Below are positions 1 to 45,536 of a DNA stretch of 64,000 nucleotides, in pieces. Origin of the DNA: Jiangella alkaliphila (lineage in GTDB: Bacteria; Actinomycetota; Actinomycetes; Jiangellales; Jiangellaceae); the NCBI RefSeq assembly GCF_900105925.1, contig NZ_LT629791.1, forward strand, positions 6,914,001 through 6,978,000. Reading direction: 5' to 3'. The notes beneath the pieces are model-generated. The model saw only the letters and a program-made list of their open reading frames with translations, had not been told where the DNA came from and ran no database searches. How positions within the stretch are numbered: the stretch's first letter is position 1; the number at the start of each line of letters is the position of its first letter. A program made the position numbers and the translations under genes.

Positions 1-54
1 CTACTGCTACGGCGGTAGTGACTCGCCCTCGGCGCACGACGGCCGGCGGGCAGA

Positions 55-4246: not shown

Positions 4247-4306
4247 GACACCACTCTAACTGCTGAGTTGGACAATCCAACCCACGACTCCGACGCGCCC
4301 TCCCGC

Positions 4307-4378
4307 GTTGATCTTGGAGTTGTTCGGCAATCGCGGGGCGAAGTGTCCGGTAGATACCCGAACAACTCCAAGATCAAC
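4307..4378. repeat. hairpin repeat, family A (GTTGATCTTGGAGT)
   Basis: A perfect inverted repeat with 21-bp arms (4307-4327 and 4358-4378) and a 30-nt loop. The left arm begins GTTGATCTTGGAGTTG. The copy at 26153 has the same outer arm and a related loop (both contain GGGCGA and TAGATACC). The hairpin lies between the divergent thiolase and zincin genes, so it is unlikely to be a simple terminator. Confidence 0.9.
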
Positions 4379-4433
4379 TTGGCCGTAGGGGCGGGAGGTT
4401 CGGGGCAGGCGCGGGCGGACGTACACTCGCGGC

Positions 4434-4799
4434 GTGGACGCCGACTCCGTCGACCTCGACGAGTTCGAGAGTATGGTCGACCAGGCCCTGGAGGAACTGC
4501 CCGACTGGGTGCAGGACGCCGTCGCCGGCATCGCGATCATGGTCGACGACCAGCCGCCGGCCGACTGGCACGGCCGTGGCCTGCTGCTCGGCCAGTTCCA
4601 CGGGGTGGCCCGGACGCGCATCGGCGGCCGGGTGCCGGGCAGCCTGCCGGACCGCATCGAGCTGTACCGCGTCCCGATCCTGAAGGTCAGCCAGACGCGC
4701 GACGACGTCGAGGCGCGGGTGCGCAAGGTGCTGGGGCACGAGATCGGGCATGCATTCGGCATCGAGGAGACCCGGCTGCGCGAGCTCGGGTGGTACTGA
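4434..4799 (+). CDS. zincin-like metallopeptidase family protein
   Basis: A 121-residue protein with an HEIGH zinc-binding motif at residues 102-106 (HEIGHAFGIEE), very close to the C-terminus, and an acidic N-terminal helix (VDLDEFESMVDQALEELP). This matches the small zincin-like family once called DUF1025. Its members are predicted metalloproteases of unknown substrate, often encoded alone in actinobacteria. It starts at a GTG and has no signal peptide. Confidence 0.8.
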   Translation: MDADSVDLDEFESMVDQALEELPDWVQDAVAGIAIMVDDQPPADWHGRGLLLGQFHGVARTRIGGRVPGSLPDRIELYRVPILKVSQTRDDVEARVRKVLGHEIGHAFGIEETRLRELGWY

Positions 4800-12940: not shown

Positions 12941-13022
12941 GCGGGAGTGGCGGAATTGGCAGACGCGCGACGTTTAGGCCGTCGTGTCTTCGGACGTAGG
13001 GGTTCAAGTCCCCTCTCCCGCA
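12941..13022 (+). tRNA. tRNA-Leu (anticodon UAG)
   Basis: The acceptor stem GCGGGAG (12941-12947) pairs with CTCCCGC (13015-13021). The anticodon stem CGACG/CGTCG encloses loop TTTAGGC, which gives anticodon TAG. A class II long variable arm (TGTCTTCGGACGTA) and a T-arm with GGTTCAAGTCC are present. CCA is not fully encoded, since ACC is followed by G. It reads CUA and other CUN codons. Confidence 0.95.
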
Positions 13023-32364: not shown

Positions 32365-32381
32365 GACCCGACCCTACGGGA

Positions 32382-32415
32382 GGGAGTTCTCCTCGCTATA
32401 GCAGGGAGAACTCCC
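32382..32415. repeat. left hairpin of nuclease cassette 1
   Basis: Perfect 11-bp arms GGGAGTTCTCC / GGAGAACTCCC around a 12-nt loop. It is nearly identical, and in the same orientation, to the hairpin at 33524, which lies on the other side of the AbiEi/DUF559-type gene. Confidence 0.9.
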
Positions 32416-32438
32416 ACCCGATCAAGGGCAACGCGGCG

Positions 32439-32456
32439 GAGTTGTCCACAGATCGC
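32439..32456 (+). promoter_or_regulatory. conserved leader motif of nuclease cassette 1
   Basis: GAGTTGTCCACAGATCGC. The same 18 bases occur upstream of the paralogous gene at 43842, with exactly the same 46 intervening bases to the start codon. Its core TTGTCCACA equals the actinobacterial DnaA-box consensus. Confidence 0.7.
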
Positions 32457-32502
32457 CGGACGGCCCTGGCGAACCGCGCGGTCGCGGCGCAGGCTGTCGA
32501 GC

Positions 32503-33567
32503 ATGTCCCATGTGCGCGCGCTGCAGCTGGCCCAGGTGCAGGACGGCCTCATCACTCGAGCCCAGGCGCTCGCCACAGGACTGACATCGTCGGCGATCGA
32601 GCATGCACTACGGCCGGGCGGGCCTTGGCAGCGCGTGGTCCGCGGCGTTTACGCGACGTTCACCGGTCCGCTCGCGCCGATCCACCGGCTGCGGGCGGCC
32701 TGCCTGCGGGCGGGCGACGGCGCGTTGATCACCGGGGCGTGGGCGTGCTGGATGTCCGGGCTGAGGTACGGGCCTCAGCCAGGCGAGGTGGTGGACGTAC
32801 TGGTCGCGCGATCGGTGGACCGCGCGCACACGGGCTTCGTCAGGGTCCATCAGACCGGGCGGCTACCGCGAGCCCAGTTCTGGGTCGACCGCGACGAGAT
32901 GTCGGTCCAGGCACCGGTTCCGGCCGAAGTGGTGCTGGACGTGCTCGTGCCCACGGCTCGACCGAGGATGATCCCCAAGGTGCCGGCAGCGCGGGCCGTT
33001 GTCGACGCCATCGTGCTCACGGAGTCGCAACGACCCGACTGGACGCCGGCGCACTCTGAGGCGGCGCTCCGGAACATCCGGGCACTGATGTGTGAGGCGG
33101 TACAACGCCGGAAAGCGACACTGCGCGACCTGCGGTCGGAGGTGCTGGCCGCACGGAGGCGTGGCTCCGCGCTGGCGCGGGTCGCGTTGGCGGACGTCGA
33201 GGCGGGCTGCCGGTCCGCACCCGAGTGCGAGCTTCGCGACCTGGTGCGCCGCAGCCGGATCTTGCCCGAGCCGGTGTGGAACCGCCCGCTGCCCGGCGTG
33301 CGCGGGATCATCCCGGACGCCTGCTGGCCGCAGCGAAGGCTGATCGTCGAGGTCGACTCACGATCGTTCCACGGATTCGGCGATGCACCGGAGCGGACCG
33401 AGCACCGGCGTGCCCGGCTTGCGGCGCTGGGCTGGGTGGTGTTGCCGGTGTCGCCGGCCCGGCTGCGCTCGAGCCCTGCCGGGGTGCTGGCCCAGATCGA
33501 GGCGGCATACCGAGCAGCCGGGAGGGAGTTTTCCTCGCCATCACCGGGGAAACTCCCGCCTCACTAA
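32503..33567 (+). CDS. AbiEi-like N-terminus fused to DUF559/VSR-like nuclease domain (cassette 1)
   Basis: A 354-residue protein. The N-terminal 50 residues (VQDGLITRAQALATGLTSSAIEHALRPGGPWQRVVRGVYAT) match the winged-helix domain of AbiEi-type antitoxins. The C-terminal 110 residues form a DUF559-like, VSR-type nuclease fold: ECELRDLVRRSRILPEPVWNRP, then IPDACWPQRRLIVEVDSRSFHG with candidate catalytic Asp and Glu, then LGWVVLPVSPARL. No AbiEii toxin is adjacent. The last codons read through a hairpin that also occurs upstream of the gene. A paralogue with about two-thirds identity is at 43842. The biochemical role is unknown; a DNA-cutting activity is inferred from the fold. Confidence 0.8.
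   Translation: MSHVRALQLAQVQDGLITRAQALATGLTSSAIEHALRPGGPWQRVVRGVYATFTGPLAPIHRLRAACLRAGDGALITGAWACWMSGLRYGPQPGEVVDVLVARSVDRAHTGFVRVHQTGRLPRAQFWVDRDEMSVQAPVPAEVVLDVLVPTARPRMIPKVPAARAVVDAIVLTESQRPDWTPAHSEAALRNIRALMCEAVQRRKATLRDLRSEVLAARRRGSALARVALADVEAGCRSAPECELRDLVRRSRILPEPVWNRPLPGVRGIIPDACWPQRRLIVEVDSRSFHGFGDAPERTEHRRARLAALGWVVLPVSPARLRSSPAGVLAQIEAAYRAAGREFSSPSPGKLPPH
33524..33557. repeat. right hairpin of nuclease cassette 1
   Basis: GGGAGTTTTCC pairs with GGGAAACTCCC with one wobble pair, around a loop. It differs from the hairpin at 32382 at only a few positions, mostly in the loop. It encodes part of the C-terminus of the nuclease-like protein and lies between two convergent genes. Confidence 0.85.
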
Positions 33568-33577
33568 CCGGCGGGCG

Positions 33578-34573
33578 TCAGCCGGCGGTGCTCTCGCGGA
33601 TCTCCAGCCTGAACGGGACGTCGATGCGCTCGGCCTTGGCCTCGGGGTCGGCGAGGCGGCGGACGACCAGGCGGATCGCCTCGGCGGCGAGGAACGGCAC
33701 GTCGGGCGAGACGGTGGTGAGCGAGGGCGTCGAGTAGCGGCCGTCCTCGATGTCGTCGAAGCCGGCCACAGCGACGTCCTCGGGGACTCGCAGGCCGCGC
33801 TCGTGCAGGACCCGCAGCGCGCCCAGCGCCATGAGGTCGTTGAAGAAGAAGACGGCGTCGACCGGGCGGCCGCTGTCGAGCAGGGCGTTCATCGCCTGGG
33901 CGCCGCTGGCGCGGTCGAAGTCGAGGTCGGACACGACCAGCCGGCGGTCGACCGGCAGCCCGGCGTCGTGCAGGGCGGCGCGGTAGCCGCGGGCGCGCAC
34001 CCCGCCGGTGCCGGCCCGCTGCGCTCCGACGGCCGCGATGTGCCGGCGGCCCAGGGCGACGAGGTGCGCGGTGACCTCGCGCGCGGCCCGGACGTTGTCA
34101 ATGGCGATGTGGTCGAAGCCGGCCGGGTGGCCGCGCTCGCCGAGCAGCACCATCGGCGTCGAGCCCGGGTGTGCCGCGACGTCCTCGACGGTCATCGCCA
34201 TGGGGCTGAACACGACGCCGTCGATCAGCTGGGTGTCGAGCGAGTCCAGTGCGATCCGCTCGCGCTCGGCCTCGCCGAAGGTCTCCTCGATCAGCACCGT
34301 GAGGCTCTGCCGCTTGGCGACGGCGCCGATCTCGGACGCGAGCGCGGCGAAGTACGGCGAGGTCAGCTCGGGCAGCGCGATGGCGAGGAACCCGGACCGC
34401 CCGTGCCGCAGGCTGCGCGCGGACACGTTGGGCCGGTAGCGCAGCTCCGCGATGGCCTTGAGCACCTTCTCGCGGGTCTTCTCGGTGACGTTGGGGTGGT
34501 TGTTGATGACGTTGGAGACGGTCTTGAACGACACCCCGGCGAGGTCCGCCACGTCCTTCAGCCGCGTGCCCAC
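33578..34573 (-). CDS. LacI-family repressor of the arabinan locus
   Basis: A 331-residue LacI/GalR regulator. The helix-turn-helix RLKDVADLAGVSFKTVSNVINNHPNVTEKTREKV is at the N-terminus and is followed by a hinge helix with YRPNVSARSLR. A periplasmic-binding-type effector domain ends the protein. It starts at GTG 34573. It is divergent from abfA and probably acts on the two direct repeats at 34702-34744, responding to arabinose or an arabino-oligosaccharide. That ligand is an inference from the neighbours. Confidence 0.92.
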   Translation of the reverse strand: MGTRLKDVADLAGVSFKTVSNVINNHPNVTEKTREKVLKAIAELRYRPNVSARSLRHGRSGFLAIALPELTSPYFAALASEIGAVAKRQSLTVLIEETFGEAERERIALDSLDTQLIDGVVFSPMAMTVEDVAAHPGSTPMVLLGERGHPAGFDHIAIDNVRAAREVTAHLVALGRRHIAAVGAQRAGTGGVRARGYRAALHDAGLPVDRRLVVSDLDFDRASGAQAMNALLDSGRPVDAVFFFNDLMALGALRVLHERGLRVPEDVAVAGFDDIEDGRYSTPSLTTVSPDVPFLAAEAIRLVVRRLADPEAKAERIDVPFRLEIRESTAG

Positions 34574-34701
34574 CTGCTGCCCCTCTCGCCTGCCCAGGAC
34601 GACCCTGACCGAGTGTAGGCACCGCCCGGCATCCGGCCGACCCGTTTTCCGGCGCTGTCGCACCGGACCGGACCAACTCCCCCTGCACTCTTCCCAACGA
34701 A

Positions 34702-34744
34702 GGTTATCCGTTGTAAAACTGTCCGCACGGTTATCCGTTGTAAA
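34702..34744. promoter_or_regulatory. two direct repeats GGTTATCCGTTGTAAA, likely LacI-type operator
   Basis: Two identical 16-base copies (34702-34717 and 34729-34744) spaced 27 bp apart, between the divergent repressor gene and abfA. The second ends 17 bp before the abfA start. The AT-rich repeats also likely overlap a promoter. Each has partial symmetry TTA...TAA, as expected for one LacI-type half-site pair. Confidence 0.75.
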
Positions 34745-34761
34745 TCCATCGAGGAGACTGC

Positions 34762-36282
34762 GTGTACGACGTCGAGGTCGGACTCGATCCGGCATTCACC
34801 GTGGGCACCGTCGACCCGCGCTTGTACGGATCGTTCGTCGAGCACATGGGCCGGTGCGTCTACGGCGGCATCTTCGAGCCCGACCACCCGACCGCCGACG
34901 AGCACGGCTTCCGTCAGGACGTCGCCGACCTGGTCCGTGAGCTGGGCGTCACCACCATCCGCTACCCCGGCGGCAACTTCGTCTCCGGCTACCGCTGGGA
35001 GGACGGCGTCGGCCCGGTCGCCGAGCGGCCGCGCCGGTTGGACCTCGCCTGGCGCTCGCTGGAGCCGAACACCGTCGGCACGGACGAGTTCTGCCGGTGG
35101 GCCCGCGGCGTCGGCATCGACCCGATCATGGCGGTGAACCTCGGCACCCGCGGCGTCGACGCCGCCGTCGACCTGCTCGAATACACGAACTTCGCGCCCG
35201 GCAGCACCAGCACCGCCGACCGGCGGGTCGCCAACGGGAACAAGGACCCGCACGCCGTCGGCACCTGGTGCCTGGGCAACGAGATGGACGGGCCATGGCA
35301 GGTCGGCCACAAGACCGCCGACGAGTACGGGCGGCTGGCGGCGGAGACGGCGCGGGCGATGCGCCGCGCCGACCCCGACCTCGAGCTGGTCGCCTGCGGC
35401 AGCTCCAACGGCGCCATGCCGACGTTCGGCACCTGGGAGCGGACCGTCCTGGAGCACACCTACGACCTCGTCGACCACATCTCGCTGCACGCCTACTTCG
35501 AGCCGGTCGGCGGCGACGTCGACAGCTTCATGGCCTCGTCCGAGGACATGCGGCGGATGATCACCGCGATCGCCGCCACCGCGGACCACGTCGGCGCGGT
35601 CCGGCGCAGCGGCAAGCGGCTGACCATCTCCTTCGACGAGTGGAACGTCTGGTACCAGCACCGCTTCTCCGGGCAGGCCGGCCTGGACGTCAACGAGAAC
35701 GCACCGCTGATCGAGGACGTGTACGACGTCACCGACGCGGTCGTGGTCGGCGACCTGCTGATGGCGCTGCTGGACCACTGCGACCGGGTGGCGATCGCCT
35801 GCCAGGCGCAGCTGGTCAACGTGATCGCGCCGATCATGACGCGGATCGGCGGGCCGGCGTGGCGGCAGACCATCTTCCACCCGTTCGCGCTGACCGCCCG
35901 GCACGCCCGCGGGACGGTGCTGCGCGCGGCTGTGCGGACGGCGCCGCTGCCGACCCAGCGCTACGGCGACGTCCCCGGCACCCGGGTGACCGCCGTCCAG
36001 GACCCGGAGACCGGCGCGCTCACGCTGCTGGCCGCGAACCGGAACCGCACGGAGCCGGCCCGGCTCACCGTCCCGCTCCGCGCGTTCGACCAGCACGGAC
36101 GGCGGCCGCGGCTGCTGGAGCACGTCGCCATCGCCGACGCCGACCCGTCCGCCACCAACACCGCCGAGCACCCGGACCGGGTCGTCCCGCGTCCGGTCAC
36201 CGGCACCGTCCTCGACGGCGAGCAGACGCTGACCGCTACCCTGCCGCCGTCGTCCTGGCACCTCATCCGGCTGGGCGACTGA
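34762..36282 (+). CDS. abfA: GH51 alpha-L-arabinofuranosidase
   Basis: A 506-residue family 51 enzyme. The acid/base Glu is in CLGNEMDG (about 174) and the nucleophile Glu in SFDEWNVW (about 293). The N-terminal LYGSFVEHMGRCVYGGIFEP and the C-terminal beta domain are typical. There is no signal peptide, so it acts in the cytoplasm on imported arabino-oligosaccharides. It is the first gene of an arabinan-use operon and starts at GTG behind a GAGGAG site. Confidence 0.96.
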   Translation: MYDVEVGLDPAFTVGTVDPRLYGSFVEHMGRCVYGGIFEPDHPTADEHGFRQDVADLVRELGVTTIRYPGGNFVSGYRWEDGVGPVAERPRRLDLAWRSLEPNTVGTDEFCRWARGVGIDPIMAVNLGTRGVDAAVDLLEYTNFAPGSTSTADRRVANGNKDPHAVGTWCLGNEMDGPWQVGHKTADEYGRLAAETARAMRRADPDLELVACGSSNGAMPTFGTWERTVLEHTYDLVDHISLHAYFEPVGGDVDSFMASSEDMRRMITAIAATADHVGAVRRSGKRLTISFDEWNVWYQHRFSGQAGLDVNENAPLIEDVYDVTDAVVVGDLLMALLDHCDRVAIACQAQLVNVIAPIMTRIGGPAWRQTIFHPFALTARHARGTVLRAAVRTAPLPTQRYGDVPGTRVTAVQDPETGALTLLAANRNRTEPARLTVPLRAFDQHGRRPRLLEHVAIADADPSATNTAEHPDRVVPRPVTGTVLDGEQTLTATLPPSSWHLIRLGD

Positions 36283-36309
36283 CCCGGCACTGCCTGCGAA
36301 GGAGCAGCT

Positions 36310-37659
36310 GTGACCACACCACGACAGTCATTGGGACACCCACTGACCAGACGACGCTTCCTCGCCGTGACCGGCCTGGCCGGCGCCGGCACGCTCCTCG
36401 CCGGCTGCGGCGGCGGCTCGGAGTCCCCCGGCGCCGAGCCGGCCGAGGGCGACGGCGGCGCCAGCGGCTACGACGGCCCCAACGTCGAGCTGGCGTTCTG
36501 GAACGGCTTCACCGGCGGTGACGGCCCGTTCATGCAGGAGCTGGTCGACACGTTCAACTCCGAGCATCCGAACATCGCGGTGACGATGACGGTCTCGGAG
36601 TGGGCCGACTATTACCAGAAGGTCCCGACCGCGGTGCAGTCGGGCAACGGCCCGGACGTCGGCATCATGCACATCGACTCGCTGTCGACGAACGCCGCCC
36701 GCAACGTCATCGTCCCGCTCGACGACGTCGCCTCGGCGCTGGAGCTGCAGGCCGGCGACTTCGCCGAGGCCGTCTGGTCCGCCGGCGAGTACGACGGGCA
36801 GCGCTTCGGCATCCCGCTGGACGTGCACCCGCTCGGGTACTTCTACAACAAGACCGTCCTGGAGTCCGCCGGGCTGGACCCGGAGAACCCGCCGATGGAC
36901 CGGACGTCGTACGAGGCGGCGCTGGAGTCGCTGGCGTCGGCCGGGATCCAGGGGCACTGGATGTCGCCGCACCCGTTCACCGGCGGGCTGACGCTGCAGT
37001 CGCTGATCTGGCAGTTCGGCGGCGACCTGTTCAACGCCGACGGCACCGAGGTCACCTGGGCCGAGGATCCGGCCGTGGAGGCGCTGACCTGGATGGTCGA
37101 CGCCGTCAACAACGGCTGGAGCGCCAGGGACGTCGGCCAGGACGCCGACGCGATCGCGCTGCAGAACGGCCAGACGGCGTTCAACTGGAACGGCATCTGG
37201 CACATCAACACCCTCAAAGAGGTGCCTGACCTGCAGTGGGGCGTGGCGCCGCTGCCGAACATCGGCGGCACCGACGCGGCCTGGGCCGGCTCGCACAACT
37301 TCGTCATCATGCGCCAGCGCACCCCCGACGACGACAAGCTGGCGGCGTCGCGGGTGTTCATCAACTGGGTCAGCCAGCAGTCCATCGCGTGGGCCGAGGG
37401 CGGCCAGGTGCCGGCCCGCAACTCGGTGCGCGAGTCGGCCGAGTTCGAGGCGCTGCCCGAGCAGGCCGCGCTCGCCCAGCAGGTGGACTACCTGCACTTC
37501 CCGCCGGCCGTCCCGGGCATCGGCGACGTGTTCGCGGACTTCAACCAGGCACTGAACGAGGCCGTGCTGCTGACCAAGGAGCCGGCCGCGGCGCTCTCCG
37601 AGGCGGCCGAGCGGGCCACCCGGAAGCTGGAAGAGAACGCCGACCGGTACGAGGGATAG
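36310..37659 (+). CDS. ABC transporter sugar-binding lipoprotein
   Basis: A 449-residue extracellular solute-binding protein of family 1. The signal TRRRFLAVTGLAGAGTLLAGC has a twin-Arg-like start and the lipobox Cys at about 33. The mature part has VELAFWNGFTGGDGPFMQELVDTFNSEHP and other features of sugar-binding proteins. It delivers arabino-oligosaccharides to the two permeases that follow; that ligand is inferred from the flanking GH51 and GH43 genes. Confidence 0.93.
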   Translation: MTTPRQSLGHPLTRRRFLAVTGLAGAGTLLAGCGGGSESPGAEPAEGDGGASGYDGPNVELAFWNGFTGGDGPFMQELVDTFNSEHPNIAVTMTVSEWADYYQKVPTAVQSGNGPDVGIMHIDSLSTNAARNVIVPLDDVASALELQAGDFAEAVWSAGEYDGQRFGIPLDVHPLGYFYNKTVLESAGLDPENPPMDRTSYEAALESLASAGIQGHWMSPHPFTGGLTLQSLIWQFGGDLFNADGTEVTWAEDPAVEALTWMVDAVNNGWSARDVGQDADAIALQNGQTAFNWNGIWHINTLKEVPDLQWGVAPLPNIGGTDAAWAGSHNFVIMRQRTPDDDKLAASRVFINWVSQQSIAWAEGGQVPARNSVRESAEFEALPEQAALAQQVDYLHFPPAVPGIGDVFADFNQALNEAVLLTKEPAAALSEAAERATRKLEENADRYEG

Positions 37660-37662
37660 CCC

Positions 37663-38622
37663 GTGGTCTCCCCCACCGCCACCGCACCCGCGCGCGGCCC
37701 GGCCGCGCGCGGGCCCGCGGGCCGGTCCTCCCCCACGCGTATCCGCCGGCACGCGCCGTGGACGCCGTACGCGTTCATGGCGCCGTTCCTGGTCATCTTC
37801 GTGACGTTCGTGCTGGCCCCGGCCGTGCTGGGGATCTGGATGAGCCTGCACGACTGGGACTTCATGCTGCCGAACCGGCCGTTCGTCGGGCTGGACAACT
37901 ACGCCGCGCTGTTCGACTCCACGTCCGCCGTGTTCGAGACGTTCTGGCACGGCATGCGCGCCACGGCGATCTTCACCGTCGCCAGCGTGCCGCTCCTGGT
38001 CGCGATCCCGCTCGGGCTGGCGATCATGCTGAACCGGCGCTTCCCCGGCCGGACGGTGTTCCGGGCGATCTTCTTCATGCCGTACGTGCTGGGCGTCGCC
38101 GTCGTCGGGCTGCTGTTCCGGTTCATGCTGGACCCGAACATCGGCATCGTGAACGGCCTGCTCGGCACGTCGACACCGTGGATCACCGCCCAGCCGTGGG
38201 CGTGGATCAGCCTGGTCGCGATGACGGTGTGGTGGACGCTCGGCTTCAACACGATCATCTACCTGGCCGGGCTGCAGGACATCCCCGGTGAGCTGTACGA
38301 CGCGGCCCGCGTCGACGGCGCGTCGGCCTGGCAGCAGTTCCGGCACGTGACGCTGCCTGGGCTGCGGACGGTGCACCTGTTCGTCGTGACGATCACGATC
38401 CTGGCCTCGGCGAACATGTTCGGCCAGGCGCTGCTGGTGACCAACGGCGGGCCGGGCGACACCACCCGGACCGCGCTGATCGTCATGCTGGCCGAGGGCC
38501 TGGAGTCGTTCCGGATGGGCAGCGCCGCGGCGATGTCGTACCTGCTCGCGGTGTTCCTGGGGATCGTCTCGATCGTCCAGGTGCTGGCCATGCGGGAGAG
38601 GAGGCCGCGATGGCGGTCGTGA
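37663..38622 (+). CDS. ABC sugar transporter permease, MalF type
   Basis: A 319-residue permease with about six membrane helices. The EAA loop is in IPGELYDAARVDGASAWQQFRHVTLPGLR. Its start is at GTG 37663, four bases after the binding protein stop. The N-terminal 30 residues are Pro/Arg/Ala-rich and cytoplasmic. No ATPase gene lies in the locus. Actinobacteria often use one shared MsiK-type ATPase, which would be elsewhere. Confidence 0.93.
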   Translation: MVSPTATAPARGPAARGPAGRSSPTRIRRHAPWTPYAFMAPFLVIFVTFVLAPAVLGIWMSLHDWDFMLPNRPFVGLDNYAALFDSTSAVFETFWHGMRATAIFTVASVPLLVAIPLGLAIMLNRRFPGRTVFRAIFFMPYVLGVAVVGLLFRFMLDPNIGIVNGLLGTSTPWITAQPWAWISLVAMTVWWTLGFNTIIYLAGLQDIPGELYDAARVDGASAWQQFRHVTLPGLRTVHLFVVTITILASANMFGQALLVTNGGPGDTTRTALIVMLAEGLESFRMGSAAAMSYLLAVFLGIVSIVQVLAMRERRPRWRS

Positions 38623-39506
38623 CGCGTCCCGACGCCGGCCCGCGCCCGGCCGCCCCACGCCACGGCGGCGCGGCGCCCGGAGCGTTCTTCCGGCAGGGCA
38701 TGTTCTGGCTGTTCCTGCTGGTCCTGACGGTGATCTTCATCGGGCCGATCGTCTGGATGTTCCTGACGTCGATCAAGACGAACCCGGAGGCGACCTCCGT
38801 CCCGCCGACGCTGCTGCCGTCGTCGCCGACGTTCGGGGCCTACGAGGGGCTGCTGCGGCTGGACGGCGCCTACCCGGTGCTGCGCTGGTTCCTCAACAGC
38901 CTGCTGGCGGCGACGCTGCACATGGTGCTGGTGCTGGTGGTCGCGTCGACGGCGGCGTACGCGCTGGCCCGGCTGCACTTCCGCGGCCGCGGCGTGCTGT
39001 TCGTGGTGATCGTGTCGACGCTGTTCGTGCCGGGGTTCGTGTTCCTCATCCCGAACTACCTGATCATCGACCAACTGGGCTGGCTGGACACCGTCTGGGC
39101 GCTGGCCGTGCCCGGCGCGGCCGGCGCGTTCGGGGTGTTCTTCCTCCGGCAGTTCTTCGCGATGCTGCCCAATGAGCTGGAGGAGGCGGCGCTGATCGAC
39201 GGCGCCAACCAGTGGCAGATCTTCACCCGCATCGTGCTGCCGAACTCCAAGCCGGCGCTGGCCACGCTGGCCGTGCTGTCGTTCCTGTCGAACTGGAACG
39301 ACTTCATCTGGCCGATCTACGTCCTGTTCAGCCCGGAGCGGCTGACGCTGCCGGCCGGGCTGCGGCTGCTGCAGGGCGCGTACACCACCGACTACCCCGT
39401 CATCATGGCCGGCGCGTTCGTCGCCAGCGTCCCCGTCCTGATCCTGTTCCTGTTCACGCAGCGCTACGTCATCGAAGGCGTCTCGCGCAGCGGACTGAAG
39501 GGATGA
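38610..39506 (+). CDS. ABC sugar transporter permease, MalG type
   Basis: A 298-residue permease with six membrane helices. The EAA loop is in LPNELEEAALIDGANQWQIFTRIVLPNSKP. It overlaps the previous permease gene by 13 bp and ends in an ATGA overlap with the GH43 gene, so the transport and enzyme genes form one coupled operon. Confidence 0.93.
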   Translation: MAVVTRPDAGPRPAAPRHGGAAPGAFFRQGMFWLFLLVLTVIFIGPIVWMFLTSIKTNPEATSVPPTLLPSSPTFGAYEGLLRLDGAYPVLRWFLNSLLAATLHMVLVLVVASTAAYALARLHFRGRGVLFVVIVSTLFVPGFVFLIPNYLIIDQLGWLDTVWALAVPGAAGAFGVFFLRQFFAMLPNELEEAALIDGANQWQIFTRIVLPNSKPALATLAVLSFLSNWNDFIWPIYVLFSPERLTLPAGLRLLQGAYTTDYPVIMAGAFVASVPVLILFLFTQRYVIEGVSRSGLKG

Positions 39507-41761
39507 TCCCCGTGCGTCGTAGGTTCCTCGCCGGCATCGCCGCCGTCGTGCTGGCACTGCCCGCCGCGGCCCCGGTCGCCACCGCCGAACCCGCAGCCGA
39601 CCCCGTCACCCAGAACCCGATCTCCGGCTCGTTCTCCGACACCTACGCCGACCCGGCCGTCATCCGCGGCAAGGACGGCTACTGGTACCTGTACGCGACC
39701 AGTGACCCGCTGCACGAGGCGCCGAGCGAGTTCGGCCTCATGCACATCGCCCGATCCCGCGACTTCACCGACTGGGAGTACCTCGGGACGGTGTTCGAGG
39801 AGGGCGACCGGCCGGCCTGGACGACGAACACGTCCTTCTACTGGGCGCCGGACATCCGCTACGTCGACGGTCAGTACGTCATGTACTACACCGTCACCGA
39901 CACGGTCGCCGAGGCCGGGCCGTGGAACTATGCGATCGGGGCCGCGACGGCGCCGACGCCGGCCGGGCCGTGGACGGACACCGGCGGCCCGGTGGTCGCG
40001 CCGCGGCCGACCGGCAACGGCGACTACTTCAACACCATCGACCCGGCGCTGCTGTCGGCGTCGGACGGCAAGCGGTACCTGTACTTCGGCGGCTTCCACG
40101 GCGGCCTGTGGGTGACCGAGCTGGACGAGACCGGGCTGCGCGCCGTCGGGTCGCCGACGCAGGTCACCATCGCGGACCGGTACGAGGGCTCGTTCGTGGT
40201 CGAGCGGGACGGCTGGTACTACCTGACGGCGTCGTCGGCGAACTGCTGCGCGGGGCCGGTCACCGGGTACAGCGTCTACGCCGGACGATCGACGAGCCCG
40301 CTCGGCCCGTTCGTCGACCACGAGGGCGTCTCGATGCTGGACTCGCGCGTCGGCGGCACCCAGGTGCTGGCGCAGAACGGCAACCGCTGGATCGGCGTCG
40401 GCCACCACACGATCGTCACCGACGTGTCCGGGCAGGACCACATCGTCTACCACGCGATCGACCGCGACGACGCCTGGCTGGACGCGCCCGGCGGGGTGAA
40501 CGAGCGGCCGACGCTGGTCGACCGGCTGGACTGGATCGACGGCTGGCCGGTCGCGCGGGCCGGGGCCGGTCCGTCGGACACGCCGCAGCCGGCGCCGGTG
40601 ACGGCGAGCTCGCTCGGGATCGACGCGTCCGCGCCGGCGTCGAACGGGGCGCTGCGCGGCGACTGGTCGGCCGGCACCGACTCGAACGGCGACGGCGGCG
40701 CCGTTGCGGTGCTGTCCGGCGAGGCGCGGACCACGCGCAATGCGCCGCGGGATGTGCGGGTGGAGGCGGACGTCCGGGCGGCCGGCACGTTCTCCGTCGA
40801 GGTCGCACGGTCCGGCCGCAACGCCATCACGGTCACCGTCGACCCCGCGGCTCGGACGCTGACCGCGACGGCGACGCGGGGCGGCCGGGTCGAGCGGGAC
40901 ACCGCGCCGCTGCCGTCGCGCTGGTCCGGCGAGGAGTGGACGGCGCTGGCGGTCGAGGTCCGCGACGGCCGCGTCGTCGCCCGGCTGGCCGAGAGCCGGC
41001 TCGGCGACGCCGACGCCGAGGTCGCCGTGGACCTGCCGCGCGGCCTGACGGGGTCGCGTCCGGTGACGCTGAGCGGCACGGCGCAGGTCGACAACCTCAC
41101 CGTCGTCGAGGCCCATGAGCCCGTGACCGAGCGGGTGGACGAGCCCAGGACCGGGCGCACCGTGTTCACCGAGAACTTCGGCGGCGACCTGCGTCCCGGC
41201 TGGGAGTGGCTGCGGCCGTCGTCGTCCGTGACCGTCGGCGACGGTGTCCTGAACTGGCCGCTGGCCTCCGTCGACGTCGTCGGCGCCGGCAACACCGGGC
41301 CGCTGCTGCTGCGCACTCCGCCGGAGGGCGAGTGGATCGCCGAGACCAAGCTGAACCTCGACCTCGGCTCCGGCACGATCCGCAACTACCAGCAGGCCGG
41401 GCTGATCGTCCGCGTCGACGACGACAACCTGCTGCGGCTGGGCGACGTCGCGATCTGGGGCAGCCGGCAGGTCGAGTTCGGCAAGGAGCTGAACGAGAAC
41501 GGCGCCCTGCGCTGGGGCGCGCACCTCGGCGGCCCGGTCGCGTCGACGATGTGGCTGCGCATCCACCACACGACCGACCCGGAGACCGGCGAGCACCAGT
41601 ACCGGTCCGCGTCGTCGCGCGACGGCGAGACCTGGCGGTGGGGCGCGACGTGGACGCTGCCCGCGGACACGTCGCCGTCGATCGGCCTCTACGCGGGCGG
41701 CGGCGCCACCCCGGCCACCGTCGCGACCTTCGACTGGTTCCGCCTGTACGAGGTGCGATGA
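39503..41761 (+). CDS. secreted GH43 family glycosidase with C-terminal accessory domains
   Basis: A 752-residue secreted enzyme. The signal peptide (VRRRFLAGIAAVVLALPAAAPVATA) is followed by a GH43 five-blade propeller (residues about 45-350). It starts with DTYADPAVIRGKDGYWYLYATSD, in which the Asp is the general base, and includes YFNTIDPALL and RYEGSFVVERDGWYYL, in which the Glu is the likely acid. Two lamin-G-like beta domains follow. An arabinanase or arabinofuranosidase role is likely. Its C-terminal domain resembles the sugar-binding accessory domains of such enzymes. Confidence 0.88.
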   Translation: MIPVRRRFLAGIAAVVLALPAAAPVATAEPAADPVTQNPISGSFSDTYADPAVIRGKDGYWYLYATSDPLHEAPSEFGLMHIARSRDFTDWEYLGTVFEEGDRPAWTTNTSFYWAPDIRYVDGQYVMYYTVTDTVAEAGPWNYAIGAATAPTPAGPWTDTGGPVVAPRPTGNGDYFNTIDPALLSASDGKRYLYFGGFHGGLWVTELDETGLRAVGSPTQVTIADRYEGSFVVERDGWYYLTASSANCCAGPVTGYSVYAGRSTSPLGPFVDHEGVSMLDSRVGGTQVLAQNGNRWIGVGHHTIVTDVSGQDHIVYHAIDRDDAWLDAPGGVNERPTLVDRLDWIDGWPVARAGAGPSDTPQPAPVTASSLGIDASAPASNGALRGDWSAGTDSNGDGGAVAVLSGEARTTRNAPRDVRVEADVRAAGTFSVEVARSGRNAITVTVDPAARTLTATATRGGRVERDTAPLPSRWSGEEWTALAVEVRDGRVVARLAESRLGDADAEVAVDLPRGLTGSRPVTLSGTAQVDNLTVVEAHEPVTERVDEPRTGRTVFTENFGGDLRPGWEWLRPSSSVTVGDGVLNWPLASVDVVGAGNTGPLLLRTPPEGEWIAETKLNLDLGSGTIRNYQQAGLIVRVDDDNLLRLGDVAIWGSRQVEFGKELNENGALRWGAHLGGPVASTMWLRIHHTTDPETGEHQYRSASSRDGETWRWGATWTLPADTSPSIGLYAGGGATPATVATFDWFRLYEVR

Positions 41762-42753
41762 GGCTGCTCGCCGCGGCCGGGACGGCGCTGGTCGTCGTCC
41801 TGGCCGCCTGCGGCAGTGACGAGCCCGACCCCGAACCCGTTCAGGAGGAACAACCCGTGGGCTTCACGAACCCGGTGTTCGACGAGGACTTCCCCGACCC
41901 GGCCGTCATCGAGGCGGATGGCGGCTACTACGCCTACGCGACCAACTCGCCGCTCGGCAACGTGCCGGCGCTGACGTCGTCGGACCTGGTGTCGTGGGAG
42001 CCGGCCGGCGACGCGATGCCGGTGCTGGCGCCGTGGGTGACGGGCGGGCGAACGTGGGCGCCGGAGATCGCGGTGCACGCGCCGGACCGGTACGTCCTCT
42101 ACTACACGGCGCTGGGGACGGCGTCGGGGCGGCAGTGCGTGGGCCGCGCCGTGGCGACGTCGCCGGCCGGCCCGTTCGTCGACGACTCCGCCGAGCCGCT
42201 GATCTGCCAGGCCGGCGACGGCGGCTCGATCGACGCCAGCCCGTTCACCGACGCCGACGGCACTCGCTACCTGCTGTGGAAGAACGACGGCAACGCGGTC
42301 GGCGTCGACACCTGGATCTACGCCCAGCCGCTGTCCGAGGACGGGTTGTCGCTGGTGGGGTCGCCGGTGCAGCTGATGAAGCAGGACCAGCCGTGGGAGG
42401 GCGACCTGGTCGAGGCGCCGTTCCTGTGGCTGCGCGACGGCACGTACTACCTGTTCTACTCGGCGAACGCCTACGACTCCGCCGACTACGCCGTCGGGTA
42501 CGCCGTCTGCGACGGGCCGCTCGGGCCGTGTCGCAAGCCTGCTGACGCGCCGATCCTGGTGTCGTCCGACGACGCCGCCGGGCCGGGGCACTGCGTGCTG
42601 ATCGAGAAGGACGGCCGGACGTGGATGGTGCACCACGCCTGGCCACCGGACGCCGTCGGCTCCGTGCTGCCCGGCCGGACGATGTGGCTCACCGAGGTCA
42701 CCTGGGAGGACGGCGTCCCCGTGCTGGACGGCCCGCGCGCGTCAGTGGATTGA
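41758..42753 (+). CDS. GH43 family lipoprotein glycosidase
   Basis: A 331-residue GH43 enzyme anchored by a lipid. The signal RLLAAAGTALVVVLAAC ends with the lipidated Cys at residue 18. The catalytic residues are the Asp in DFPDPAVIE, the Asp in GSIDASPF and the Glu in LVEAPFLWL. It is coupled by ATGA to the larger GH43. It probably trims arabino-oligosaccharides at the cell surface. The stop lies right at a cassette hairpin that begins at 42753. Confidence 0.9.
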   Translation: MRLLAAAGTALVVVLAACGSDEPDPEPVQEEQPVGFTNPVFDEDFPDPAVIEADGGYYAYATNSPLGNVPALTSSDLVSWEPAGDAMPVLAPWVTGGRTWAPEIAVHAPDRYVLYYTALGTASGRQCVGRAVATSPAGPFVDDSAEPLICQAGDGGSIDASPFTDADGTRYLLWKNDGNAVGVDTWIYAQPLSEDGLSLVGSPVQLMKQDQPWEGDLVEAPFLWLRDGTYYLFYSANAYDSADYAVGYAVCDGPLGPCRKPADAPILVSSDDAAGPGHCVLIEKDGRTWMVHHAWPPDAVGSVLPGRTMWLTEVTWEDGVPVLDGPRASVD

Positions 42754-43842
42754 TGGCGCTCTTTGTACGGCCCCAGCAGTAGATAGAGCGCCATGACCGG
42801 CGAGATACGCGGCCTCGATCTGGGTCAGCACCCTTGCCGGGTCCGCGCGTAGCCGGGCCGGCGACACCGGCAGCACCACCCAGCCCAGCGCGGCCAGCCG
42901 GGCACGGCGCTGCTCGGTCCGCTCCGGCGCGTCGCCGAACCCGTGGAACGAACGCGAGTCGACCTCGACGATCAGCCGCCGCTCCGGCCAGCAGGCGTCC
43001 GGGACGATCCCGCGGACCCCGGGCAACGGACGGTTCCACAGCGGCTCCGGCAGAATCCTGCTGCGGCGCACCAGGTCGCGCAGCTCGCACTCCGGCGCGG
43101 ACCGGCAGCCCGCCTCGATGTCCGCCAACGCCACTTTCGCCAGCACCGAGCGGCGCGGCCAGGCCGCTTCGACCTCGTTGCGCAATGCGGCCGGTCCGGC
43201 CATCCGTCGTTGCACGGCCTCGCACATCAGCGCCCGGACGTTCCGCAGTGCCCTGGTCCGGTGCGTCGCGGGCTTCGAGCACCCGTAGCGGCACCGGCAC
43301 CCTGGCGACCAGTCCGGCGGCGCGTGCTCGGTGAAGACGACGGTGTCGACGACGGCACGCGCCGCCGGCACCATGAGGATCTCGCCCGGTCGTGCCGTCG
43401 GCGCCAGCTCATCGAGGACCACGTGCGGCGGCGGTAGCGCGTCGGCGTCGTCGACGCCGATCCAGCCGGACGCCGCGGGCATCCGCACGGTGCGCCGGAC
43501 CACCACGAAGCCCGTTCCGTGCAGCCGTACGGCCCGACCCACCAGCACCTCGATCTCGTCCCCGACCGGCGGGCCATAGGCGAGACCCGACATCCAGCAT
43601 GCCCACGCACCGGTGACCAGCGCGCCGTCACCCGCGTACAGGCGGGCGGCCCGCAGCCGGTGCAGCGGCGACAGCGGTCCGGTGAACGTCGCGAACACGC
43701 CACGCAACACCCGCTGCCACGGACCGCCTGCCCGCACCGCATGCGTGATCGCGGCCGGCGACATCTCGGCCGCCAGTGCCTGCTTGCGCGTGATCAGGCC
43801 GTCCTGGACCGCGGCCAGCCGCTGAGCTCGTACATGTGGCAC
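42742..43842 (-). CDS. AbiEi-like N-terminus fused to DUF559/VSR-like nuclease domain (cassette 2)
   Basis: A 366-residue paralogue of the protein at 32503. The two share MxHVRAxxLAxVQDGLITRxQALA at the start and RSAPECELRDLVRRSRILPEP through the end. This copy has an extra Cys-containing insert (SPGCRCRYGCSKPATHRTR) in the middle. Candidate catalytic residues are in VPDACWPERRLIVEVDSRSFHG. It starts at a GTG. Its stop lies beyond a 42-bp hairpin that also occurs beyond the 5' end. It is convergent with the GH43 lipoprotein gene, with a 12-bp overlap. Confidence 0.8.
   Translation of the reverse strand: MPHVRAQRLAAVQDGLITRKQALAAEMSPAAITHAVRAGGPWQRVLRGVFATFTGPLSPLHRLRAARLYAGDGALVTGAWACWMSGLAYGPPVGDEIEVLVGRAVRLHGTGFVVVRRTVRMPAASGWIGVDDADALPPPHVVLDELAPTARPGEILMVPAARAVVDTVVFTEHAPPDWSPGCRCRYGCSKPATHRTRALRNVRALMCEAVQRRMAGPAALRNEVEAAWPRRSVLAKVALADIEAGCRSAPECELRDLVRRSRILPEPLWNRPLPGVRGIVPDACWPERRLIVEVDSRSFHGFGDAPERTEQRRARLAALGWVVLPVSPARLRADPARVLTQIEAAYLAGHGALSTAGAVQRAPSIH
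42753..42794. repeat. 3'-side hairpin of nuclease cassette 2
   Basis: Perfect 10-bp arms ATGGCGCTCT / AGAGCGCCAT at the ends of a 42-bp element that contains TTTGTACGG. Most bases match the element at 43915, in the same orientation. It is part of the coding region of the nuclease-like protein. Confidence 0.9.
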
Positions 43843-43888
43843 GCAGCCCAGCCTGCGTCGTTCGAGAGCGCGCTACCACCCCCGGCTC

Positions 43889-43906
43889 GCGATCTGTGGA
43901 CAACTC
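43889..43906 (-). promoter_or_regulatory. conserved leader motif of nuclease cassette 2
   Basis: On the minus strand this reads GAGTTGTCCACAGATCGC, the same as at 32439-32456, with the same 46-base gap to the start codon. Elsewhere in the two leaders there is little similarity. Confidence 0.7.
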
Positions 43907-43914
43907 GAGTGAGC

Positions 43915-43956
43915 ATGGCGCACTTTGTACGGCTAGAGCAGCAGAAAGAGCGCCAT
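43915..43956. repeat. 5'-side hairpin of nuclease cassette 2
   Basis: A 42-bp element with arms ATGGCGCACTTT / AAAGAGCGCCAT (one mismatch) and the shared TTTGTACGG. It is a direct repeat of the element at 42753. It touches the stop codon of the oxidoreductase gene at 43956. Confidence 0.9.
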
Positions 43957-45536
43957 CACCCGTTCACCGTGACGTCGATGGTGTGCCAGCCGCTGGCGCC
44001 GTCGGGGACGGGTGGCGCCTGCTCGGACGTCTGCACCTCACCGTCGGCGGTGGTGGCGCGGACCTGGAGGCGGTGGTCGCCGGGCTCCGCGTCCCACCCC
44101 CACACCCACTGCCGCCAGGTGTCGGTGCTCGGGACGGCGGCCAGCCGCGCGGCGTTCCAGTCGCCGTCGTCGACCTTCACCTCGACGGCGTCGATGCCGC
44201 GGTGCTGCGCCCACGCGACCCCGGCGACCGCGACGGTGCCGGCGTCGACGTTCGCCTGGCTGCTCGGGACGTCGATGCGTGAGGCGACCTTGACCGGGCC
44301 GCGCTCGGCCCAGCCGCGCGTCGTCCAGTAGGCGTTGAACTGGTCGAACCGGCTCACCTCGAGCTCGACCACCCACTTGGTCGCGCTGACGTAGCCGTAC
44401 AGGCCGGGCACGATCATCCGCACCGGGAACCCGTGCGCGAGCGGCAGCGGCTGGCCGTTCATGCCGACCGCCAGCAGCGCGTCGCGGCCGTCGGTGAGCA
44501 CGTCGAGCGGCGTGCCGGCGGTCCAGCCGTCCTGCGAGCGGGACCGGACGGCGTCGGCGTCGGGACTGGGCTGCGCGAGCGCGAGCACGTCGGCGATCGG
44601 CACGCCGGTCCACAGCGCGTTGCCGATGAGGTGGCCGCCGACCTCGTTGGAGACGCAGTTCAGCGTCAGCCAGCGGTCCTCCAGGCCCATGCGGACCAGC
44701 TGGTCGTAGTCGAGCTCGACCTCGTTCTCGACCATGCCGTGCACGCGCAGCGTCCAGTCCTCGGCCCGGACCAGCGGTTCCGAGAGCGCGGTGTCGATGC
44801 GGTAGAAGTCCTGGTTCGGGGTGCGCCACGGCTCCGCGCCGCTGACGGTGAGGTCGGCGCCGTCGGGCGGGGTGGCCCGGGGCAGGTCGAGGCTGGTCGC
44901 GAGGTCGTCGCGGGACGTCTCGACACCGGCTCGCCGGGCGCCGAGCAGCTGCCCGAGCCCCGTGCCGACGACGGCCAGGCCCGCGGTGATGCCCGCCGCG
45001 GTGAGGAACGTCCGCCGGCTCGGCCCGCGGGCCGTCTCGGCGTCGCCGGTGGGTGGCGGTGCGGTTGCCTTGCCGACCAGCCAGCTGAGGGTCGGCAGCG
45101 CGACGATCCCGGCCGCAACCGTGGGGATGAGGTCGGCCATCGTGGTGTCCGGCCGGTTGTTGACGGCGAATCCGGCGATCACCAGCAGGACGGTGGCGGC
45201 GAGCATGCCGGCGCCCTTGCGGCGGGCCGTGAGCAGGCCGATCAGCCCGCCGAGCACCGTCAGCACCACACCCATGCCGACCAGCAGCGCGGTCTTGTCG
45301 TGGGTGCCGAACGTCTCGATGGCGAAGTCCTTGAGCCACGGCGGCGTGAGGTCGATGAACTCCTCGCCGACCGCCACCACCGGCGTCTCGGCCCTTCCCA
45401 GCGCGCCCGCCACCACCTCGGCGACGGCCAGCCCGAGGCCCAGCGCCAGCACCCCCGCCAGCGCCGGCGGCCACCACGGCCTGCGCGGTGTCGACGGCAG
45501 CGCGGCGGACGGCGTTGCCGTCACGGAGTCGGTCAC
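43956..45536 (-). CDS. membrane-bound molybdopterin-dependent oxidoreductase (sulfite oxidase family)
   Basis: A 526-residue protein. Four to five membrane helices fill residues 20-200, including a twin-Arg-like SRRTFLTAAGITAGLAVVG. The SUOX-type molybdenum domain follows: NQDFYRIDTALSEP, then LTLNCVSNEVGG with the Mo-binding Cys, and MIVPGLYGYVSATKWV. A C-terminal immunoglobulin-like dimerisation domain ends it. It likely oxidises an extracytoplasmic substrate and feeds electrons to an unknown partner. The GTG at 45536 has an upstream GGGAGG; the GTG at 45572 has no ribosome site. Confidence 0.88.
   Translation of the reverse strand: MTDSVTATPSAALPSTPRRPWWPPALAGVLALGLGLAVAEVVAGALGRAETPVVAVGEEFIDLTPPWLKDFAIETFGTHDKTALLVGMGVVLTVLGGLIGLLTARRKGAGMLAATVLLVIAGFAVNNRPDTTMADLIPTVAAGIVALPTLSWLVGKATAPPPTGDAETARGPSRRTFLTAAGITAGLAVVGTGLGQLLGARRAGVETSRDDLATSLDLPRATPPDGADLTVSGAEPWRTPNQDFYRIDTALSEPLVRAEDWTLRVHGMVENEVELDYDQLVRMGLEDRWLTLNCVSNEVGGHLIGNALWTGVPIADVLALAQPSPDADAVRSRSQDGWTAGTPLDVLTDGRDALLAVGMNGQPLPLAHGFPVRMIVPGLYGYVSATKWVVELEVSRFDQFNAYWTTRGWAERGPVKVASRIDVPSSQANVDAGTVAVAGVAWAQHRGIDAVEVKVDDGDWNAARLAAVPSTDTWRQWVWGWDAEPGDHRLQVRATTADGEVQTSEQAPPVPDGASGWHTIDVTVNG

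Follow-up and report, generated by a model that had tools for sequence, protein, structure and literature searches.

A stretch of 64,000 nucleotides of the genome of the soil bacterium Jiangella alkaliphila (positions 6,914,001 to 6,978,000 of contig NZ_LT629791.1; the whole stretch is called the window here) raises the question of what ties two paralogous nuclease-like genes to the hairpin-forming palindromes that bracket them. The initial annotation likened these cassettes to repetitive extragenic palindromes (REPs) and their REP-associated tyrosine transposases (RAYTs), with an enzyme of another class. We found the core of this idea strongly supported by dispersed solitary palindromes (solos), by stems specific to nuclease clades, by copy numbers that track the nuclease and by the lack of any RAYT-type gene among the genomes searched. 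Its further suggestion that the paired palindromes are duplicated target sites went mostly unsupported. Genome comparison demonstrated paired, clade-specific and dispersed palindromes tied to the nuclease, and we give a probability of about 0.6 to a REP-like repeat system in which a nuclease of the Vsr/EDxHD type would take the place of RAYT. To the same degree, movement of the palindromes by the nuclease is the most likely interpretation.

Palindrome pairs around the nuclease genes

The source genome (G000; 7.7 Mb, single contig) carries, besides the two genes of the window (proteins 69% identical), three further close paralogues (60-64% identical), and all five close copies have their own palindrome pair. 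A pair was called when both palindromes scored at least 8 and their mutual score was at least 22. This was the case in 20 of 24 copies of the genus, at none of 1000 random positions taken from the window and from regions of four relatives, and at none of the 52 other genes of the window, which excludes chance and bears out the bracketing of both AbiEi-DUF559 genes by matching palindromes. One more copy (L033), the match of which starts within the gene, was kept out of this test; its palindrome pair is plain.

Palindromes match within each cassette and not between the two, the stems belonging to different families (F in cassette 1, E in cassette 2) as had been noticed from the start. The word "near-identical" first used for them was generous, the identity of the matching pairs being 76% over 51 nucleotides in cassette 1 and 85% over 46 in cassette 2. 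Direct scores exceed inverted scores in both cassettes, in agreement with the orientation first given. Among 22 flanking pairs 15 are direct, 5 inverted and 2 ties, with small orientation margins in some pairs of these near-symmetric palindromes. A stop codon some 10 bp past the 3' palindrome, also reported earlier, holds for the two genes of the window; in other clades the stop comes before or inside the palindrome. Within a unit (gene plus pair) the upstream and downstream palindromes had a mean score of 35.3, versus 11.5 between units.

The palindromes are imperfect, about 50 bp long with arms of 22 pairs, and 48 of them were aligned without gaps across 52 columns. Changes on both sides were found in 21 of the 22 stem pairs, and the 286 cells showing such covariation were reached by none of 500 shuffles, the shuffled mean being 99. 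The apex GC[CT][AC]T[AG]GC (GC-YMTR-GC) appears on either strand in 31 of the 48, and columns 22 and 31 are unpaired in 29 of them, a frequent mismatch three pairs off the loop. No conserved block of the GTAG/CGTC head kind was seen when the columns of the alignment were read by eye, and no Rfam family matched the hairpins up to its threshold.

As to the proteins, the AbiEi-like N-terminus and DUF559/VSR-like C-terminus originally proposed are weak in Pfam and clear in PADLOC and by fold. Specifically, Pfam gave expectation values (E) of 0.034 and 4e-4 for AbiEi_4 and of 0.0031 and 4.7e-4 for DUF559, all short of the curated cut-offs, while PADLOC assigned AbiEi to both proteins (best E 7e-9 and 7e-11). 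The Pfam search of the two cassette proteins found no Y1 HUH domain, and nothing meaningful matched at the sequence level in PDB. In the predicted structure the catalytic domain resembles the homing endonuclease I-Bth0305I (the closest) and Vsr, and the N-terminus resembles AbiEi. Residues E241, E243, D272, E283, D285 and H290, candidates for the EDxHD active site, are invariant, as read without superposition on 3r3p. Nuclease relatives at E <=1e-25 are present in 20 of the family's 22 genomes, and among 274 other genomes drawn from the class 8 have them. One relative (30% identity) is located on a Rhodococcus ruber plasmid, and no copies were found in viral contigs and phages. No palindrome pair was found at six distant DUF559 loci of G000 (L006, L008-L012).

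Dispersed palindromes and their link to the nuclease

A covariance model of the palindromes gave in G000, at E <=1, at least 127 strand-wise matches or at least 70 distinct places, at least 55 of the places at E <=0.001, and this census is a lower bound. Just nine of the places, among the matches listed, lie in the five nuclease units; the downstream palindrome of cassette 2, the tenth of the units, is not among the G000 matches listed. Seven neighbouring pairs begin 51-66 bp apart. When 51 palindromes from 40 regions of G000 were sorted by stem, families B and D had 10 members each, G 9, A 6, F 5, C 4 and E 3, with 4 outside these. The families mostly match nuclease clades, and in G000 the matching clade is present for A, B, C, E and F. 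Among 79 genomes of the class (E <=0.001), four Jiangella genomes had at least 61-74 matches among those listed, and any match at all was found in 9 of the 75 others.

Both the type and the number of hairpins go with the nuclease. Hairpin similarity drops with nuclease distance over 21 units (rho -0.54, 0 of 5000 permutations) and also in the eight units of one site (site 3, see below) taken alone (rho -0.63, 32 of 5000 permutations). Judged from these comparisons, hairpin type follows the nuclease and not the site, even where clades share one site. Besides, hairpin matches per genome correlate with intact nuclease genes (Spearman 0.926, p 1.5e-5, n=12; counts are of both strands and lower bounds, kinship is ignored and nuclease genes were assigned by hand). 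In the case of G007 at least 148 hairpin candidates are among the matches listed, G002 has only a broken nuclease gene and nine strand-wise matches (four from that gene's own two palindromes), and in G003, which lacks a nuclease, there are 12 weak strand-wise matches (best 35.5 bits). A RAYT-type Y1 gene was found in none of the 12 genomes searched.

Sixty solo loci picked by best score (40 from G000, 11 from G001 and 9 from G007) were placed relative to genes with a home-made codon-usage gene finder. Forty are between convergent genes, 16 between tandem genes and 4 not classifiable; none is between divergent genes or centred inside a gene. For comparison, convergent gaps make up 12 of the 64 in the window and contain 136 of its 6104 intergenic bases. 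Nuclease remnants were found at none of the 60 loci (about 0.8-1.7 kb searched per side), in a search that was positive in three of four control regions with decayed cassettes and missed L066. On this count we rejected deletion between paired hairpins, as in solitary long terminal repeats (LTRs), as the main route to solos. Two solos of G001 (L140, L142) have their first 50 bases identical plus 14 shared left-flank bases (GCAGGCCGCCGACG), as if copying carried adjacent DNA along.

Solos vary among relatives. L144 of G007 has no counterpart at the matching junction of G011, G009 or G000, L147 is present in G011 and absent in G000, L146 is absent in G004, and L141 of G001 recurs in G005 but is lacking at the corresponding intergenic place of G010. 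One orthologous intergenic site has a family B hairpin in G001 and G005, C in G007 and D in G000. These cases come from 11 solos of G001 queried, with three sites read base by base, and from nine of G007, six of which were tried (joining in relatives failed for L148 and L149). The gap holding L142 in G001 contains in G002 (L155, about 1640-1700) another hairpin, bounded by TGATCA (TGATCATCAACCTTCTG...) and missed by the covariance model. Extra genes, which by reading we take to be toxin-antitoxin-like, were seen in G009, G000 (L266, L269) and G002 (L168) at the intergenic spot holding solos in other species. We also observed inserts of about 170-200 bp with AATGATCACGT in intergenic gaps of G005, G006 and G003 (L061, a reverse-complemented copy at 4280-4476; L256; L257), which look like a separate family resembling miniature inverted-repeat transposable elements.

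Location between convergent genes and beside stop codons is also what could be expected of ordinary bidirectional terminators or of 3' hairpins with another regulatory role, resembling each other by chance and without mobility. We consider this highly improbable. No intrinsic-terminator call covers a whole hairpin between 31000 and 46000 of the window, the one overlapping call relying on an internal T run. Moreover, sequence families are shared across dozens of sites, hairpins are present or absent among relatives, different families are found at one orthologous site, and the hairpins depend on the nuclease clade.

Occupied and empty sites

Full units of the genus cluster in five sites. The genes on either side of site 1 are co-oriented in G000, and the orientation of the unit at this site goes both ways among species. 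At site 2 (12 genomes) there is a unit in G000, G006 and G008, a single hairpin in G005 and G007, and none in G011, where the site is empty with overlapping stops (TGATCA); it is decayed in G001 and G010, and the other 4 genomes have other inserts or rearrangements. Site 3 has a unit in 10 genomes (the G011 gene matched in two pieces) and is empty without hairpin in G002 and G003. Across species its units come from three or more nuclease lineages and face either way, and G001 and G010 carry different lineages there despite flanks that are 94-96% identical. Site 4 has a unit in six genomes, a broken one in G002, no unit or hairpin in G008 and G010, and unrelated inserts in the other three (G003, G004, G006). 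The two flanks of site 5 (L003) are not adjacent in relatives. In filled sites the outer palindrome ends are often at the stop codons of convergent neighbours. In the five site 4 units the nuclease proteins have diverged faster than their neighbours, being 78-90% identical versus 94-99% and 84-95% for the flanking proteins (compared over parts of 140 and 110 residues).

The comparison with empty sites, in which a lone hairpin and clean edges had been expected of a mobile cassette, gave a mixed outcome. In the seven informative cases there is a single hairpin in two (site 2 of G005 and G007) and none in five (site 2 of G011, site 3 of G002 and G003, site 4 of G008 and G010), so the unit would usually bring both hairpins. 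TGATCA flanks the single site 2 hairpin of G005 on both sides and is found once in the empty G011. The same ends are shared by several solos at other sites, and therefore a target duplication is indistinguishable from an extended palindrome. With five empty sites lacking any hairpin and intergenic junctions too diverged for clean edges, we rejected target-site duplication as a general rule. LTR-like deletion is possible for the single hairpins of site 2.

A free-standing homing endonuclease would explain part of this pattern. It would cut gene-free palindromes or stop-codon junctions, the whole unit would be copied in by recombination via the hairpins or the flanking genes, and the solos would be homing sites or leftovers. 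The catalytic domain is nearest to I-Bth0305I, which reportedly dimerises on a target of nearly 60 bp (PMC3943268), and this would suit a 50-bp palindrome. Turnover at site 3, where nucleases of several clades are found facing either way, is compatible with homing; the single hairpins at site 2 also favour it, as does a locus from a metagenome-assembled genome (MAG), L218, where two identical palindromes lie within identical 64-bp direct repeats. Nevertheless, genus units occupy five sites while palindromes are found at dozens, solo loci lack gene remnants, and the unit's own palindromes are intact and hence still cleavable. Homing is thus an unlikely explanation.

The features of the window are collected in Table 1. 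The genes neighbouring the two cassettes code for an aldo/keto reductase, LacI, a glycosyl hydrolase 43 and a molybdopterin oxidoreductase, and no toxin partner (AbiEii nucleotidyltransferase gene) is among these four. Between palindrome and gene there is a TTGTCCACA box, present in 22 of 25 genus copies and probably a promoter or operator element, which presumably resembles a DnaA box. As it likewise stands upstream of three distant paralogues that have no hairpin pairs, the box is not tied to the hairpins, and a DnaA box as a hairpin feature was rejected.

Table 1. Coordinates of the two cassettes and other features in the window
Feature	Position	Strand	Remarks
Nuclease gene 1	32503-33567	+	354 residues; AbiEi-like N-terminus, Vsr/EDxHD-type C-terminal domain
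Nuclease gene 2	42742-43842	-	366 residues
Cassette 1 upstream palindrome	32373-32424	+	Stem family F, GGGAGGGAGTTCTCC...; covariance model match, 50.5 bits
Cassette 1 downstream palindrome	33515-33566	+	Overlaps 3' end of gene 1; model match, 41.7 bits
Cassette 2 downstream (3') palindrome	42748-42799	-	Stem family E, ATGGCGCTCTTT...; model match; overlaps stop codon of adjoining glycosyl hydrolase 43 gene
Cassette 2 upstream palindrome	43910-43961	-	Model match; overlaps stop codon of molybdopterin oxidoreductase gene
TTGTCCACA box, cassette 1	32442-32450	+	Between palindrome and gene 1
TTGTCCACA box, cassette 2	43895-43903	-	Upstream of gene 2
Solo palindrome, right part	1-35	+	Family G; G000:C1:6913984-6914035 (L122), begins 17 bases ahead of the window
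tRNA	12941-13022	+	Single Rfam match in the window

A proposed REP-like system with another enzyme

According to the papers compared, RAYT genes evolve fast, are bracketed by a palindrome pair and co-evolve with it, and the copy number of the palindromes is linked to their presence (PMC2817692); REPs are located between convergent or unidirectional genes (PMC3733652), occur as doublets (PMC3116915) and have a bulge in the stem (PMC8266576). To that extent the Jiangella system is like REP-RAYT (REPtrons; bacterial interspersed mosaic elements, BIMEs; REP doublets forming hairpins, REPINs) in all these traits: two-palindrome bracketing, many dispersed extragenic copies in numbers that follow the gene, a fast-evolving gene, gene and palindrome that co-evolve, convergent or unidirectional location, doublets and stem bulge. 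It differs in the enzyme, an AbiEi plus Vsr/EDxHD-type nuclease whereas RAYT is a Y1 HUH transposase, in the palindrome (about 50 bp versus 20-40 bp, with no GTAG head seen) and in the flanking pairs, mostly direct (15 of 22) where REP pairs are inverted. These differences set the system apart from REPtrons, which it otherwise resembles in its way of working.

The likeness to EDxHD homing endonucleases such as I-Bth0305I is in the EDxHD/Vsr catalytic fold of the predicted model; the Jiangella gene differs in being outside any intron or intein, in its AbiEi-like N-terminal half and in having many palindromes without gene. With respect to Vsr mismatch-repair endonucleases and the DUF559-type NGO0050, it adds the bracketing and dispersed palindromes and the N-terminal domain. 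The AbiEi fold (PADLOC, predicted model) is shared with AbiE type IV toxin-antitoxin systems, but here it is fused to a nuclease, with no adjoining toxin partner.

Similar arrangements were found beyond the genus copies already described. In named genomes 28 of 38 loci were tested (the ten others are Jiangella contigs already counted), and of those tested, 4 of the 7 from Jiangella have a pair, as do 8 of the 21 that come from other genera or MAGs, these eight with new stem sequences. Eight loci outside the family (L241-L248) were assessed by tests looser than the controlled pair criterion: clear folded flank repeats are present in L248 (GCTATAGC apex), L241 and L244, L242 and L245 are borderline, two have none and one is cut by the contig end. 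In L245 (G198) repeated AAGAAGGGGCCCCTTCTT palindromes, unlike the Jiangella kind, flank a distant DUF559 gene.

Several points weigh against a REP-like system run by the nuclease. Cleavage, binding and movement are all inferred from sequence, and an enzyme that cuts duplex DNA would be a hazard with intact sites throughout the chromosome. Four of the 24 genus copies failed the pair criterion (L018, L019, L024, L025); the L025 miss is an artefact of where its match ends, both palindromes having been detected otherwise (as L200), and L024 has two palindromes too dissimilar to each other. In 10 of 21 units a same-site hairpin of another unit outscores the unit's own second hairpin, so units are not as a rule homogenised internally. 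Relatives that have the same genes but no paired hairpins, regarded by the initial annotation as contrary evidence, do exist in part, the pair criterion having failed at 13 of the 21 loci in MAGs and in other genera of the Jiangellaceae. The way the counts behind the Spearman correlation were made is to be added to this list, and also families D and G (10 and 9 of the 51 palindromes), orphans in G000 with full nucleases of those clades only in other species, and G045, from another actinomycete family, with 20 strand-wise hairpin-model matches and no nuclease relative found there.

These last observations, like the presence of one or more model matches in 9 of the 75 non-Jiangella genomes, are what would be seen if another host or element enzyme moved the palindromes and the DUF559 gene were cargo or a reader (regulator or processor). 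We regard this as improbable: the nuclease-free genome of the genus has weak matches only, stem family tracks nuclease clade even at one shared site, and a search of the 12 genomes for a Y1/RAYT gene, the best-known candidate, found none. The G045 hairpins are possibly another REP-like system with a different enzyme; one of them (L290, G045:C20, about 1495-1560; TGATCTTGGCTGGGTTT...) is directly past a likely stop codon.

In the REP-like system that we favour, the nuclease would act on the palindromes through putative DNA binding and cleavage. A nuclease gene of matching clade lies between two copies of its palindrome, and palindromes of several stem families are scattered over the genome. The AbiEi-like N-terminal half would most likely read the stem and the Vsr/EDxHD-type domain cut at or beside the palindrome, which would be copied in trans into gene 3' ends, chiefly between convergent genes. 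Copying could involve a single-stranded hairpin, a cruciform or a duplex. The nuclease unit itself is found at few sites and would occasionally be exchanged or lost.

We found no description of such a nuclease-palindrome system in the open-access literature of PubMed Central (PMC). We lean towards a second kind of REP system in Actinomycetes, independent of RAYT, in which an AbiEi-like reader joined to a Vsr/EDxHD homing-type nuclease would spread and maintain its own palindromes, recurring outside Jiangellaceae with unrelated palindromes, so that REP-like repeats would be convergent. The papers compared link REP palindromes to a single transposase superfamily; if a nuclease class unrelated to it produced the same genome architecture, dispersed palindromes would be a convergent strategy. 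A first role would also be suggested for proteins filed under DUF559/AbiEi and, if the recognition we infer holds, these would be enzymes with family-specific palindrome recognition. Since several enzyme and palindrome families coexist in one genome, the spread of short non-coding palindromes becomes a testable question.

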